Below, one piece after another: positions 1 to 20,126 of a DNA stretch of 33,005 nt. The stretch comes from Treponema sp. (GTDB lineage Bacteria > Spirochaetota > Spirochaetia > Treponematales > Treponemataceae), in the NCBI GenBank assembly GCA_024693915.1, contig JAILKG010000195.1, positions 1 to 33,005 of the forward strand, given 5' to 3'. Each line of letters starts with the position of its first letter. Within the stretch, counting starts at the first letter, position 1. Under the pieces are notes generated by a model, which worked only from the letters and a program-made list of their open reading frames with translations, searched no databases and was not told where the DNA came from. The position numbers and the translations under genes are program-made.

Positions 1-860
1 ACCTGAGTTGAAGCAAAGTATTCGAAAACTTCGCCGATTTCGCTTCTCTGAAGGTTTCTAAGGTCATCTGCAAGGTTTGCGATGATACCAAAAGCAACGT
101 TCATCTCAAGAAGAAGGCGGAGAACGTGTTCCGGTTCAACAAGCTGGTTTGAATATTCTGATGGAGTGAGCCCAAGATATTCTGTGTAGATTTTTTCCAG
201 TTCTTCAGGATCTTTTACAATCATTGAAGGACCGTTGTAAGAACCAACCGGACCTGCAAGTTTTCCTACAAGCTGGTCAGAAAGTTCTTCAATGCGGAGA
301 ATTGATTTTCCAAGGCGGCTTACGAATTCAGCGATGCTCCAGCCAAAAGTGATTGGTACAGCGTGCTGACCGTGAGTTCGGCCAACCTGAGGAGTTGCGC
401 ATTCTCTTTCTGCAATGTCGCAGAGGTATTTTTCAAGCTGCTTCAATTCAGGAAGAACAACGTTTTTTGTAACGTCCCGCATTCGGCAGCTCAAAGCAGT
501 GTCAAGAATATCAACGGAGGTTGCACCCATGTGGATGTAAGGTCCGATTTCTGCGCTCACTTTTGTTTTCATTACATTTACAAGGGCGCGGATATTGTGC
601 TTTGTTTTTTCTTCTTCTGTGTAAACTTCTTCCGGATCAATTTTTTCTGCAACTTCGTCCAGATTTTTTGCGATTTCGTCTGTCAGACTTCCGCGGAGTT
701 TGAGGTGAGCTTTTACAAGAGCTGCTTCACATTTTGCACAAGAGCGGATGCTGGCTTCTTCAGAAATATATTTAGAAAGACCCTCAAAAACTGAGGCTTC
801 CGACAAAGAGTATCTGTGGTCGATACAAGAAAGGTTTTCAAAAATGTTTCGTGTTTCCAT
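1..860 (-). CDS. purB: Adenylosuccinate lyase, N-terminal part (runs off the window start)
   Basis: Reverse complement reads METRNIFENLSCIDHRYSLSEASVFEGLSKYISEEASIRSCAKCEAALVKAHLKLRGSLTDEIAKNLDEV...GPYIHMGATSVDILDTALSCRMRD...GRTHGQHAVPITFGWSIAEFVSRL...GPVGSYNG; fumarase/aspartase-superfamily motifs of PurB. Absent from the ORF track because it is open at the window edge. Confidence 0.88.
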   Translation of the reverse strand, partial: METRNIFENLSCIDHRYSLSEASVFEGLSKYISEEASIRSCAKCEAALVKAHLKLRGSLTDEIAKNLDEVAEKIDPEEVYTEEEKTKHNIRALVNVMKTKVSAEIGPYIHMGATSVDILDTALSCRMRDVTKNVVLPELKQLEKYLCDIAERECATPQVGRTHGQHAVPITFGWSIAEFVSRLGKSILRIEELSDQLVGKLAGPVGSYNGPSMIVKDPEELEKIYTEYLGLTPSEYSNQLVEPEHVLRLLLEMNVAFGIIANLADDLRNLQRSEIGEVFEYFASTQ

Positions 861-990
861 AAGATAAATTATACTGAAATTTATATATTGGGGCAATTAG
901 TGGAGATGGCACAATATCAGGGCAAACGCATTATGAATTCTATACATAAAAAAATTGGAATGGGGAAGCATGCCGCGGACAAAAAAGACT

Positions 991-1070
991 CTGTTTGTGG
1001 TTGCCGCGAAAGCGGCATACAATAGTACCTCAGCCACAAACAGCGTCTAGCGCATTAATGCGCGTTTTTT
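991..1070 (+). other. Structured interior of the MITE: nested stem with GAAA tetraloop, then a hairpin plus T6
   Basis: CTGTTTGTGG (991-1000) pairs with CCACAAACAG (1034-1043), enclosing TGCCGC-GAAA-GCGGCA (1002-1017). A 14-bp palindrome GCGCATTAATGCGC (1050-1063) is followed by GTTTTTT. Confidence 0.55.
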
Positions 1071-1132
1071 GGACCGTGGCAATGCCGACCAGAGCGCTTT
1101 TATTTGTAAAACATATTAATAATGCGTTTGCC
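1065..1132 (+). repeat. Dispersed 68-bp repeat, copy 1 (right end of the MITE)
   Basis: TTTTTTGGACCGTGGCAATGCCGACCAGAGCGCTTTTATTTGTAAAACATATTAATAATGCGTTTGCC; matches 14845-14912 with one mismatch. Confidence 0.95.
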
Positions 1133-1176
1133 CTGGCACAATATTGGCGCTACTTCCCCCCAGAATGTTTTTTCTA

Positions 1177-1182
1177 TATAAT
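1177..1182 (+). promoter_or_regulatory. Candidate -10 box (TATAAT) immediately upstream of argH
   Basis: TATAAT ends 8 nt before the ATG at 1191; no clear -35 box and no Shine-Dalgarno sequence. Confidence 0.35.
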
Positions 1183-1190
1183 TGTAACAT

Positions 1191-2594
1191 ATGGAACATG
1201 GTACAATTACTCAGGATAATCACGCAGCCTTGTGGCACGGTCGCTTTGAAGATGGCCCTGACGCAGCGGCAGTTGCTTTTGAAACTTCAATTCACGTTGA
1301 TGAAAGAATGGCTTTTGATGATATAAAGGGAAGTATTGCTCATGCAAAAATGCTTTCTAAATGCGGTATAATTTCCCAGGAAGAAATGAAGGCCATTGTT
1401 TCTGGTCTTGAATCCATCGAAAAGGATTTGCAGGACGGAAGCTTAAAAATTGACTACAGTGCGGAAGATATTCATTCTTTTATTGAAGCCACACTGACAG
1501 ACAGAATAGGTGAACCGGGCAAAAAAGTTCATACAGGCAGAAGCCGAAACGATCAGATTGCTTTGGACGAAAGGCTTTATCTTTGCCGTTTTATTCCTGA
1601 TATGCAGAACAGACTAAAAACTCTTGTATCTGCCCTTGTTCAGATTTCTGAAAAGCACAAAGCCGACATTATGCCTGGCTTTACCCACATGCAGCACGCT
1701 CAGCCGGTAACTTTGGCTCATCATCTTTGTGCATGGAGCTGGATGCTTGTTCGAGACTACGGACGCCTTGAAGACGCTTTAAAGAGAATTAAAAAATCGC
1801 CTATTGGTTCTGGCGCTCTTGCGGGAAGCGGTCTGCCTTTGGATAGAGAATACGAAGCCAGTCTTCTGGGCTTTGACCAGATTACAGAGAACTCTATGGA
1901 CAGCGTTTCCGACAGGGATTACTGCATCGAAGTTGCTTCTGCTTTGAGCCTTGTTCAGATGCACCTTTCCCGCTTTTGCGAAGAGGTAGTTCTCTGGTCT
2001 ACAACTGAATTCGGTTTTATCAATTTGAGCGAAAAGTGGTCCACCGGTTCTTCCATTATGCCTCAGAAAAAGAATCCTGATTTTGCAGAACTTATTCGCG
2101 GACGCACAGGCCGGGTTTACGGTGATCTGATTGCTCTTTTAACAATGATGAAGGCGCTTCCACTTTCCTATGACCGGGATATGCAGGAAGACAAGCAGAG
2201 TCTTTTTGAGGCTTGTGACACAGTTCTTTCATGCGTGCAGATTTTTACCTACATGATTTCCAGTGCAGACTGGAACACTTCAAAAATGAAGGATGCCTGC
2301 CAGGACGGATTTTTGAATGCCACTGATGTTGCAGATTATCTTGTTCGCAAGGGCTTGCCTTTCAGAACAGCACACGGAGTTAGTGCAAGAAGTGTTCGCA
2401 TGGCAATTGACCGGGGCTGTCGGCTTGAAGATCTTTCTTTGGAAGATTTTCGTTCTTTGAGCGATTTGATTGAAAAGGATATTTTTGATGTAATTCCACC
2501 AGAGAAGTGCGTTAATGCAAGAAGCACTGCGGGAGGTCCGGCTGCTTCTTCTGTGGAAAAACAGCTTTCTGCCTTAAAGGAATTCTGCAAATAA
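1191..2594 (+). CDS. argH: Argininosuccinate lyase
   Basis: 467 aa; LWHGRFEDGP, HTGRSRNDQ, GFTHMQHAQPVTLAHHL, signature GSSIMPQKKNPD. Confidence 0.95.
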   Translation: MEHGTITQDNHAALWHGRFEDGPDAAAVAFETSIHVDERMAFDDIKGSIAHAKMLSKCGIISQEEMKAIVSGLESIEKDLQDGSLKIDYSAEDIHSFIEATLTDRIGEPGKKVHTGRSRNDQIALDERLYLCRFIPDMQNRLKTLVSALVQISEKHKADIMPGFTHMQHAQPVTLAHHLCAWSWMLVRDYGRLEDALKRIKKSPIGSGALAGSGLPLDREYEASLLGFDQITENSMDSVSDRDYCIEVASALSLVQMHLSRFCEEVVLWSTTEFGFINLSEKWSTGSSIMPQKKNPDFAELIRGRTGRVYGDLIALLTMMKALPLSYDRDMQEDKQSLFEACDTVLSCVQIFTYMISSADWNTSKMKDACQDGFLNATDVADYLVRKGLPFRTAHGVSARSVRMAIDRGCRLEDLSLEDFRSLSDLIEKDIFDVIPPEKCVNARSTAGGPAASSVEKQLSALKEFCK

Positions 2595-2709
2595 TTTTGT
2601 ATATAATGACCGATTTTTTCTGATTTTTCAGGCAATACCGGCATTTATAAATCTTTAAAAAAAGGCAGGAATTTCTGAAGGAACTTTTTTCTGAGGAAAT
2701 TTTGCCAAA

Positions 2710-3525
2710 TTGGAGAAAAAAATGAAAAAAATTGCTGTAATTGCTCTTGCAATTCTTGCGTCGGGTCTTTTGTTCAGTTGTAAAAAAGCTGTAAAAGAAG
2801 ACAATTCTCTGGAAGATATTAAAAAACGCGGCGTTTTTATTCTTGGTCTTGATGATTCATTTCCACCACTTGGATACCGTGATGAAGACAGCAATATCGT
2901 AGGTTATGATATTGATCTGGCTAAAGAAGTAAGCAAGCGTCTTGGACTTGAATTTAAGGCTCAGCCAATTGACTGGGATGCAAAGGAAATGGAACTTTCT
3001 ACAGGAAAAATTGACTGTATCTGGAACGGTTTTACAATCACAAAAGAAAGAGAAGAAGCACTTTCTTTTACAAAACCTTATTTGAACAATGAACAGGTTC
3101 TTGTTGTAAGAAATAACAGCGGAATTAAGTCTTTGAGCGACGCTGCCGGAAAAGTTGTAGGTATTCAGAGTGGATCCAGTGCTCAGGAAGCAGTTGAAGA
3201 AAACAAGACTTTTGCAGATTCTCTTAAAAATATCGTATTCTTTAAGGAAAATGTAACTGCTTTGAATGACCTTGAAATGGGTGGTGTTGATGGCGTTGTA
3301 ATGGACAGCGTTGTTGCAGCTTTTGATATTACTGTTTCTTCAAAGCCTCTCAATATTGTTCCTGAAGTTCTTGCTAACGAAGCTTATGGTGTTGCTTTCA
3401 GAAAAGAAGATGTAAAACTTCGCGATGAAGTTCAGAAAATCCTTGAAGAAATGGAAGCAGACGGAACTGTAGAAGCAATTAGTGAGAAATGGTTCGGCCG
3501 GAACATCAGCGTAATCGGAAAATAA
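2710..3525 (+). CDS. Polar amino-acid ABC transporter substrate-binding lipoprotein (SBP_bac_3 type)
   Basis: 271 aa; lipobox-like LASGLLFSC; GVFILGLDDSFPPLGYRDEDSNIVGYDIDLAKEVSKRLG...EKWFGRNISVIGK. Confidence 0.9.
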   Translation: MEKKMKKIAVIALAILASGLLFSCKKAVKEDNSLEDIKKRGVFILGLDDSFPPLGYRDEDSNIVGYDIDLAKEVSKRLGLEFKAQPIDWDAKEMELSTGKIDCIWNGFTITKEREEALSFTKPYLNNEQVLVVRNNSGIKSLSDAAGKVVGIQSGSSAQEAVEENKTFADSLKNIVFFKENVTALNDLEMGGVDGVVMDSVVAAFDITVSSKPLNIVPEVLANEAYGVAFRKEDVKLRDEVQKILEEMEADGTVEAISEKWFGRNISVIGK

Positions 3526-3578
3526 ACCATTTTTACGCAGTTCTAACCAGAAAGTCCTACCGGGACTTTCTGGACGCG
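3491..3578 (+). repeat. 88-bp direct repeat copy 1 (3' end of the SBP gene plus hairpin)
   Basis: Compared by eye with 3642-3729: 5 mismatches in 88 positions, no gaps. Contains CCAGAAAGTCC-TACCG-GGACTTTCTGG (3547-3573). Confidence 0.92.
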
Positions 3579-3587
3579 GATAAAGGA

Positions 3588-3629
3588 AGAGGCTAAAACG
3601 ACCCTGGCGGCTCGTTTTTTAACGCCTCT
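3588..3629 (+). other. Inverted repeat / hairpin between the two 88-bp repeats
   Basis: AGAGGC(T)AAAACGA ... TCGTTTTTTAAC GCCTCT. Confidence 0.6.
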
Positions 3630-3641
3630 ACGATATGCGCG

Positions 3642-3729
3642 GGTTCGGCCGCAACATCAGCGTAATCGGAAAATAAACCGTTTTTACGCAGTTCTGATCA
3701 GAAAGTTCTACCGGGACTTTCTGGACGCG
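3642..3729 (+). repeat. 88-bp direct repeat copy 2, just upstream of the permease gene
   Basis: Repeats the SBP C-terminal codons FGRNISVIGK-stop (one synonymous change) and the same hairpin, with a C-to-T change that keeps pairing as G-U. Confidence 0.92.
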
Positions 3730-3753
3730 AAAATAAAATATCTGGAGTCAAGT

Positions 3754-4428
3754 GTGAGCGAAAAATATGTAAAAATGCTTAAGGCTATGCTTAATGGTTC
3801 GATAACTTCTATTGAAGTTTTCTTTTTAACTCTCATATTTTCTGTTCCACTGGCTCTTTTGATTTGCGGCGGGCGAATGAGCAGGGCAAAAGTGCTCTCC
3901 TGGATTACCCGCATTTTTCTGCTTATAATCAGGGGAACTCCCCTTATGCTTGAGCTGCTGGTTGTTTATTTTGGACCAGCACTTTTTGTCCGCTGGCTTA
4001 AAAGTTTTGGAATTGAGGCAACAAGCTGGAACCGCTTTACTGCCGCAATCGTTGCTCTTTCAGTAAATTATGCCTGCTACTTTGCAGAAATCTACCGTGG
4101 AGGAATTGAATCTATTCCCCGGGGACAGTACGAGGCAGGCAAGGTTTTAGGTTATACTCCTTCACAGACATTTTTTAGAATTATTATTCCCCAGGTTGTA
4201 AAGCGCATTATGCCAGCCATGGGAAATGAAGTTATTACTCTTGTAAAAGACACTGCTCTTGTTTCCGTTATCGGTGTGGCCGAGCTTTTGATGGTTGCAA
4301 AGGAAAGACAGAGCGCTCTTTTTTCTTTTACCCCTCTTTTTATTGCTGGTGTTTTTTATTTTGTTATGAACTGGTTTGTTACAATGGGATTTTCAAAATT
4401 AGAGAAAAAACTTTCTTATTATAATTAG
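3754..4428 (+). CDS. Amino-acid ABC transporter permease
   Basis: 224 aa, GTG start with TCTGGAG upstream; TRIFLLIIRGTPLMLELLVVYF and EAGKVLGYTPSQTFFRIIIPQ (EAA loop). Confidence 0.92.
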   Translation: MSEKYVKMLKAMLNGSITSIEVFFLTLIFSVPLALLICGGRMSRAKVLSWITRIFLLIIRGTPLMLELLVVYFGPALFVRWLKSFGIEATSWNRFTAAIVALSVNYACYFAEIYRGGIESIPRGQYEAGKVLGYTPSQTFFRIIIPQVVKRIMPAMGNEVITLVKDTALVSVIGVAELLMVAKERQSALFSFTPLFIAGVFYFVMNWFVTMGFSKLEKKLSYYN

Positions 4429-19384: not shown

Positions 19385-19573
19385 TTATTAGAAAAATTCG
19401 ATGATGGAAAGGATAATTTTGTATCTGGATTTGATTCTGAAGATATAAAACAAGAAGCGACAGACTCCATAAAGTCGGTGAACGCCCTTTATGGCTACAC
19501 GCCTGAGTTTCTCGAAATATACGCTCAGGTGGGAGTTGTTTACGCTTCTCTTAATCCTAATATAGCTTGTTAG
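19385..19573 (+). pseudogene. Probable 3' remnant of a protein-coding gene
   Basis: Protein-like LLEKFDDGKDNFVSGFDSEDIKQEATDSIKSVNALYGYTPEFLEIYAQVGVVYASLNPNIAC-stop, abutting the preceding terminator with no plausible start of its own. Confidence 0.45.
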
Positions 19574-19591: not shown

Positions 19592-19809
19592 CGGCTACTG
19601 CAGGTTTTGCCGTTACGGTTGCTGACTTCCTGTCAGCTCCCTCCACGGCGCCTTTGTTCGCTTTCGGGCACCTCCTGTGCCCTCATCGAATAAAATGCTG
19701 CGCCACTACTCGCTTTTTGGGCGCTCACTTCGGTTCAAAACCTGGTTATGGTTAATAAGAAAATTTGAGTTAAATAAAAAAAAGCTTCCTGATTTCTCAA
19801 GAAGCTTTT
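19592..19809 (-). repeat. 218-bp repeat unit A: tRNA-Asn 3'-end mimic, structured element, AT-rich tail, hairpin
   Basis: CGGCTACTGCAGGTTTTG (17/18 to the tRNA 3' end), element 19601-19744 closed by CAGGTTTTG/CAAAACCTG, GTTAAATAAAA, hairpin AAGCTTC...GAAGCTTTT. Confidence 0.85.
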
Positions 19810-20027
19810 CGGCTGCTGCAGGTTTTGGCATTCCAGTCAGCGACTTCCTGTCGCTTCCTTTCATGCCGGCTTCGCTCACTGTCGCCGCCGTCCTGGCGGC
19901 TTTTCACGGAAAACGCTCCGCACTGCTCGCCTTTTCCGTGCGTTCGCTCCGCTTCAAAACCTGATTTATATTTAATAAATATGATTTTACGTTAAATAAA
20001 AAAGGGTCTGAACTTATCAGACCCTTT
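19810..20027 (-). repeat. 218-bp repeat unit B: tRNA-Asn 3'-end mimic, structured element, AT-rich tail, hairpin
   Basis: CGGCTGCTGCAGGTTTTG (18/18 to the tRNA 3' end), element 19819-19963, GTTAAATAAAA, hairpin GGGTCTGA...TCAGACCC (the tRNA terminator). Confidence 0.85.
20003..20027 (-). terminator. Terminator of tRNA-Asn
   Basis: Minus strand AAAGGGTCTGATAAGTTCAGACCCTTTTTTATTT directly after the tRNA 3' end. Confidence 0.75.
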
Positions 20028-20100
20028 CGGCTGCTGCAGGTTTTGAACCTGCGACACATGGATTAACAGTCCATTGCTCTACCAGCTGAGCTAAGCAACC
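20028..20100 (-). tRNA. tRNA-Asn (anticodon GTT), CCA not encoded
   Basis: 73 nt: GGTTGCT TA GCTC AGCTGGTA GAGC A ATGGA CTGTTAA TCCAT GTGTC GCAGG TTCAAAA CCTGC AGCAGCC G; all four stems pair. Confidence 0.96.
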
Positions 20101-20126
20101 ATCAGTTCATTGCTGAACGTGAAAAT

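Follow-up and report, generated by a model that had tools for sequence, protein, structure and literature searches.

The window, that is the whole stretch of DNA that was analysed (33,005 nucleotides of a Treponema genome), carries a tandem array at a tRNA-Asn gene, with the gene of an OmpA/FlgD-Ig protein on one side and a lytic transglycosylase gene on the other. The original prediction, made by reading the bare sequence, had drawn attention to an 18-mer of the tRNA-Asn 3' end that occurs at 20028 (within the tRNA), at 19810 (identical) and at 19592 (one mismatch), spaced 218 bp twice, and to two homologous elements of 144 and 145 bp between these copies. We reproduced the positions, the mismatch and the spacing, and located the two elements at 19601-19744 (144 nt) and 19819-19963 (145 nt), both of which fold far better than shuffled sequences. 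With up to two mismatches allowed, the 18-mer had 3 matches in the window and 0 in 100 shuffles; three copies at 218-bp spacing are more than chance.

On the minus strand, which is the tRNA-sense strand, the array begins with tRNA-Asn (20101-20027), its terminator, an AT-rich spacer, R'' (CAGGTTTTG) and module B, continues with R' and the tRNA 3' end (19827-19810), a second terminator, a spacer, R'' and module A, and finishes with R' and a tRNA 3' end containing one mismatch (19609-19592). R'' is an inverted (reverse-complement) copy of the host T-arm and R' is the 3' strand of the T-arm, and the two form the closing stem P1 of a module. The tRNA terminator and the terminator-like hairpin of unit A, both of which had been predicted, are present on the minus strand. 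The features of the array are as follows:

20027..20101, minus: host tRNA-Asn (GTT) gene, the proposed attachment target (ARAGORN; Rfam RF00005, 68 bits)
20028..20045, minus: tRNA 3' end from the T-loop onward (CAAAACCTGCAGCAGCCG), intact within the tRNA
20000..20028, minus: terminator hairpin behind the tRNA
19810..20027, minus: 218-bp stretch counted as proximal unit B
19819..19963, minus: folded module B (145 nt), 132 bits to model R1
19955..19963, minus: R'' of module B, reverse complement of the host T-arm and 5' strand of closing stem P1
19941..19951, minus: P2 5' strand of module B (CGGAGCGAACG); Watson-Crick pairs covary around nearly invariant G.A pairs
19905..19940, minus: H1 hairpin of module B, an optional slot with REP-like sequence
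19884..19900, minus: H2 hairpin of module B, loop AGGAC
19870..19880, minus: P2 3' strand of module B (AGTGAGCGAAG)
19827..19867, minus: H3 hairpin of module B, loop AGGAA, internal motifs GNA/GNA and GA/AG
19819..19827, minus: R' of module B, the T-arm 3' strand and 3' strand of P1; junction with the next unit
19810..19827, minus: second tRNA-Asn 3'-end copy (identical)
19779..19810, minus: terminator hairpin of unit A
19592..19809, minus: 218-bp stretch counted as distal unit A
19601..19744, minus: folded module A (144 nt), 132 bits to model R1
19736..19744, minus: R'' of module A
19722..19732, minus: P2 5' strand of module A (CGAAGTGAGCG)
19666..19682, minus: H2 hairpin of module A
19652..19662, minus: P2 3' strand of module A (AGCGAACAAAG)
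19609..19649, minus: H3 hairpin of module A
19592..19609, minus: third, displaced tRNA-Asn 3'-end copy (one mismatch) at the distal array end, with no terminator behind it

When unit B is taken from the T-loop junction, the cassette shifts by 18 bp and consists of the tRNA 3' end, the terminator, the AT-rich spacer and module B. Between the OmpA gene and the array, the plus strand also has a 61-codon open stretch (19385-19573) that ends in NPNIAC*, has no start and no Pfam match, and is possibly the remnant of an older cargo gene.

Fold and covariation of the module

In the module, P1 (R''/R') encloses P2 and H3, and P2 encloses H2 and the optional H1. The original prediction had the stems H2 and H3 and the loops right, and had missed the closing stem P1, which is specific for the host tRNA, and the G.A-based helix P2. 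The two strands of P2 have the consensus CGGAGYGARCG / AGYGARCGNAG, and P2 and H3 have a motif in common, in which nearly invariant GNA/GNA and GA/AG mismatches are flanked by Watson-Crick steps whose positions covary. The prediction had described the plus strand, whereas the minus (tRNA-sense) strand folds best: folded as single-stranded DNA on this strand, the two window modules gave z = -5.3 and -4.8 against shuffles.

The claim that stem pairs change on both sides found modest support in the two window copies alone and overwhelming support with 137 homologues. Among 38 modelled pairs, 36 change on both sides, and 91% of cells pair (136 distinct sequences). The covariation score of 0.55, compared with 0.16 for shuffled alignments, was not reached in 500 shuffles and was far above that of slid registers. 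This alignment is fitted to the covariance model, and plain MAFFT alignments made without the model gave the same outcome. Without guidance, RNAalifold recovered P1, P2 and H3, with 21/25 pairs doubly changed.

The sense strand was the better-folding strand in 119/124 modules. In the module stems G-T exceeds A-C by 39:10; therefore, the tRNA-sense strand is the folding one. Only 1.9% of the P2/H2/H3 pairs (39/2030) are G-U, compared with 9.7-10.1% in the acceptor and T stems of the tRNAs at the same loci. This scarcity of G-U is a hint, though no proof, that selection acts on a DNA fold; alternatively, it could reflect selection for strong RNA stems.

Since the folding strand is also the transcribed strand, the module could be read instead as a structured non-coding RNA made by tRNA read-through or co-transcription, in which P1 and the acceptor strand would be a tRNA-like processing end, the GGA loops would bind a protein such as CsrA, and the arrays would have grown by ordinary tandem duplication. 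Exactly two CA(N)SGANG hairpin loops were present in 104/124 modules, and both hairpin loops carry CA(N)GGANG, the known CsrA-type motif, with GGA found in 220/253 loops; several GGA motifs thus lie in predicted hairpin loops, as would be expected of a CsrA sponge. On the other hand, 33 loops have CGA in place of GGA, and the frequency of G-U pairs is one fifth of that in tRNAs. We consider an RNA of this kind rather unlikely to be the whole account, although an RNA function, for example via the GGA loops, could possibly coexist with mobility.

The core of H1 in module B (AAAACGCTCCGCACTGCTCGCCTTTT; window 19905-19940) recurs alone as short, near-identical matches in several genomes, which suggests a REP-type repeat that has come to occupy a slot of the module. 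In other modules the H1 inserts are different or much longer. Very many dispersed palindromic repeats (GCGCGGGGAACTTCGCGCTCCGCGC type; 42-71 matches per genome) were also seen in four genomes (G119, G107, G132 and G142), where they lie beside and inside some modules as well.

Spread of the family and matching to host tRNA genes

The covariance model and the search of other Treponema that the original prediction had proposed were carried out with a model (R1) built from ten copies. R1 matched 107/146 genomes of the genus, 127/195 genomes and 15/20 sampled genera of the taxonomic family, and 30/247 genomes and 14/125 genera across the phylum, other families and classes included. The number of copies per genome ranged from 1 to about 12, with 8 in G063, and those carriers that have names are Treponema from gut and rumen. 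Five strong copies were found in the genome of the window, of which two are at tRNA-Asn, a further two at tRNA-Ala(ggc), and the fifth lies 59 nt behind tmRNA. Units are 139-220 bp in size and usually contain no gene.

In Rfam, at gathering and lax thresholds, tRNA alone matched and all other matches were far below the gathering score. A blastn search of the array against phage and plasmid records gave no match, the exact module pattern had no occurrence in viral contigs, and a literature search that covered few subscription papers found no published description of such elements. It appears that the element family has not been recorded so far.

The proposed association with tRNA 3' ends was borne out: 111/128 copies examined singly have a same-strand tRNA upstream, mostly 45-90 nt away, with second or third units at 200-660 nt from the tRNA. 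The remaining 17/128 copies are at the edge of a contig, at tmRNA, or separated from the tRNA by a larger insertion, and those of them that were read have tRNA-type ends. Six genomes from other families and classes together have 36 copies, all of which (36/36) lie behind a tRNA, with ends that in nearly all cases match that tRNA. Neither of the contrary outcomes that the prediction had named, a lack of covariation or an ordinary insertion sequence without preference for tRNA ends, was encountered. At least 20 different tRNAs serve as hosts, plus tmRNA; the tRNAs include Asn, Met, Arg(gcg, tcg, tct), Gln, Pro(tgg, cgg), Leu(gag, cag, taa, caa), Ala(tgc, ggc, cgc), Gly(ccc), Thr, Glu, Val, Ser and Tyr.

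The ends of each unit follow its host. The 3' junction of the module repeats the host tRNA sequence starting at R57, and this copy matched its own host at a mean of 15.3/17 nt and other isotypes at 8.9/17, and R'' matched its own host at 7.6/8 and other isotypes at 5.5/8. In 87/100 copies the host junction is TTC|R57 of the T-loop. R'' is the reverse complement of the same host stretch and is usually 8-9 nt long; about a dozen loci have one of 15-22 nt, which reaches as far as the tRNA end. The R'/R'' sequences change with the host tRNA, as in AAAACCTG/CAGGTTTT and GAGTCCTG/CAGGACTC. The terminators belong to the host locus, and units that lie inside a tRNA operon lack one and are 157-159 bp long. 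A unit consists of the tRNA 3' end from the T-loop (TTC|RA), the host terminator or a spacer, R'' and the module, and this cassette anatomy is well supported.

These positions bear on the RNA reading in two ways. Some modules lie 5-7 nt behind a tRNA (at tRNA-Arg(tcg) of genome G437 only 5 nt separate tRNA and module) or inside a tRNA operon without terminator, and at those loci the module must therefore be transcribed. However, exact T-loop junctions and host matching at 20 or more tRNAs are left unexplained by a non-coding RNA.

The same positions could also be expected if the units were non-autonomous derivatives of tRNA-gene islands, formed at the T-loop by double-stranded attP x attB recombination through tyrosine integrases of phages or ICEs; the fold would then have another role or be a relic. 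As a rule, islands in tRNA and tmRNA genes have a crossover in the T-loop, a restored tRNA and a displaced 3' fragment (Islander, PMC4383910). Integrase-bearing elements are indeed found in the same tRNA-Met T-arm beside modules at two loci: phage-type tyrosine integrases (PF00589) of larger elements lie at 854-2323 in L136 and at 9830-11242 in L140, and these elements push the module arrays away from tRNA-Met. Tyrosine integrases that use tRNA genes are usually specific for one tDNA. An origin from such islands gives no reason for one module family across many isotypes, or for a conserved fold with the inverted host T-arm in its closing stem, and we regard it as unlikely.

Copies and species compared

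In three genomes, modules at two different tRNAs are 86-92% alike (Pro/Ala in G063, Arg/Gln in G024 and Arg/Gln in G014), and the likeness ends at R'' and R', with unrelated terminator and spacer. Either transposition or gene conversion between existing arrays would account for such likeness between different tRNAs, and the comparison of sister species is better evidence for movement. At tRNA-Leu(caa), G132 has the tRNA, its flank, R'' and an 8-nt module remnant, no perfectly empty site being seen there, while its sister G119 has one extra unit with a different spacer that starts at the tRNA T-loop, and the displaced 3' end in G119 retains the flank and the module remnant of G132. This is the one clear species comparison for insertion beside a tRNA, and the gain of a unit with a foreign spacer at the same tRNA is again left unexplained by a non-coding RNA. 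The Ser(cga) arrays of the sisters G142, G119 and G132 contain 3, 1 and 1 units.

In genome G110, which is of a related species, module B is 99% identical to that of the window, and the flanking genes are 84% and 75% alike. The segment with tRNA-Asn and the array is inverted at the same locus (L010, G110:C25, 1305-1733 versus window 20159-19729), and one breakpoint lies within R'' of module A. Arrays whose first terminator differs from the second (the window and L010 of G110) speak against simple target-site duplication, which was rejected for them; in L106, L104 and L097, by contrast, the copy ends directly behind the terminator. The tRNA-distant ends of arrays are often cut off inside a module; decay of the distal tRNA copies, taken as an ageing gradient, was not significantly greater (p=0.6).

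At one tRNA-Met locus (L135, G135:C6:14500-20500), two near-identical modules surround about 3.6 kb with ATPase_2 and Metallophos proteins (684-4332), so that larger gene-carrying units may exist. No integrase was found among the two largest ORFs of this 3.6-kb cargo unit.

Taken together, at least 20 tRNAs and tmRNA are used, the number of units differs between sister species, and only the module is common between tRNAs. Because of these observations, we favour the tRNA-targeting mobile element among the two readings that the original prediction had offered, with the structured RNA family as the less favoured alternative.

Proposed mobility, candidate recombinases and known systems

We propose, with a probability of about 60%, that the array is a tandem series of very small, integrase-less mobile cassettes, which use the T-loop of tRNA and tmRNA genes as integration site and of which the folded module is the part that moves. 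Each unit would bring the tRNA 3' end from R57, the host terminator or spacer, R'' and the module, whose 3' end would be joined to the displaced old tRNA 3' end (R'), and the tRNA would remain intact since each unit restores the 3' end. The sense-strand fold, formed on single-stranded DNA, may act as the attachment site and be read by its shape by a recombinase in trans, with P1 substituting for the tRNA T-arm, like attC hairpins in integrons. This proposal draws directly on the anatomy, the T-loop junction, the host matching, the fold, the copy-number differences between species and the spread over spirochaetes; from these we infer the single-strand recombination and the route by which R'' comes to match a new host tRNA. 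As some loci have full-length inverted copies, we suggest that R'' is made anew from the target and then shortened.

Among the 142 genus genomes searched for recombination enzymes, 42 have the integron integrase IntI (TIGR02249 over cut-off), and modules were present in 31/42 genomes with IntI and in 72/100 without (Fisher p=1). The TIGR02249 score of G000 was below the cut-off, and several further genomes of the genus have broken copies of the integron integrase. Since no tested enzyme is tied to the family, we take the likeliest agent to be either Xer, which is in nearly every genome, or a tyrosine integrase of phage type provided in trans.

Movement of another kind, by single-strand transposition with an HUH (Y1) transposase or by copying through an RNA intermediate, would make R'' a guide that pairs with the target. 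IS200/IS605 elements use such guide-target pairing, which the R'':R' pairing resembles, and at three loci (L106, L104 and L097) the direct copy of the tRNA 3' end and terminator stops just after the T-run, as a transcript would. However, association with the modules was found neither for the Y1 transposase (PF01797; 26/34 of the carriers among 142 genomes have modules, p=0.66) nor for reverse transcriptase (PF00078; 27/37 of the carriers among 142, p=1), and neither enzyme was found in the window's genome (82% complete). We consider this mode very improbable.

A broader and more tentative suggestion is that the T-loop cassettes represent a new class of mobile element: gene-less folded DNA that could insert at the T-loop of nearly any tRNA or tmRNA gene, with a structure-specific recombinase reading the shape of the module, the closing stem being rewritten for each host, and the common fold of tRNAs serving as the target code. 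The spirochaete phylum gains an apparently unrecorded element family at tRNA 3' ends that are annotated merely as spacer, and with this family one can test directly how an element keeps up with a target that is different at every site.

The cassettes have much in common with integron cassettes and attC sites, including those of Treponema chromosomal integrons (PMC3607928, PMC2727003): tandem cassettes added at one platform site, imperfect inverted R''/R' that close a folded site, a preferred strand and a junction in R'. As in attC, the fold is conserved while the sequence is free (36/38 pairs, 39:10, 119/124). The topology is also alike, with target, tRNA 3' end, spacer, R'', fold and old tRNA 3' end, and with the T-loop in place of attI; the same topology equally describes a tRNA-gene island reduced to its attachment sites. 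However, integron R''/R' boxes carry AAC and GTT triplets (PMC3607928), whereas R''/R' of the family have no such triplets and vary with the host tRNA. As platforms the family uses tRNA or tmRNA genes, of which there are many per genome; there is no link to IntI, and the units are normally gene-less. With tRNA-gene islands (PMC4383910) the family shares the T-loop crossover, tandem arrays, and a restored tDNA with a displaced 3' fragment in the same orientation. Unlike these islands, the units are 139-220 bp, have no integrase and usually no gene, and have a folded module and an inverted T-arm copy at 20 or more tRNAs. Because there are no GTT/AAC boxes, no IntI link and no integrase, the family belongs to neither integron cassettes nor tRNA-gene islands as defined.

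REP/BIME sequences and MITEs are likewise short, palindromic, non-coding and dispersed within genomes; in contrast to them, the modules are strictly behind tRNA genes, have host-matched ends, repair the tRNA, have a complex covarying fold and have no link to Y1. The CTXphi phage and IMEX elements have a folded single-stranded attP that is used by XerCD at dif, and they would resemble the family, as proposed here, in having a one-strand folded attachment site and a host recombinase acting in trans, the target of the family being a tRNA gene instead of dif. If the proposed mechanism is true, folded-strand recombination, so far found in integrons and a few phages, would extend to tRNA genes as general integration platforms.
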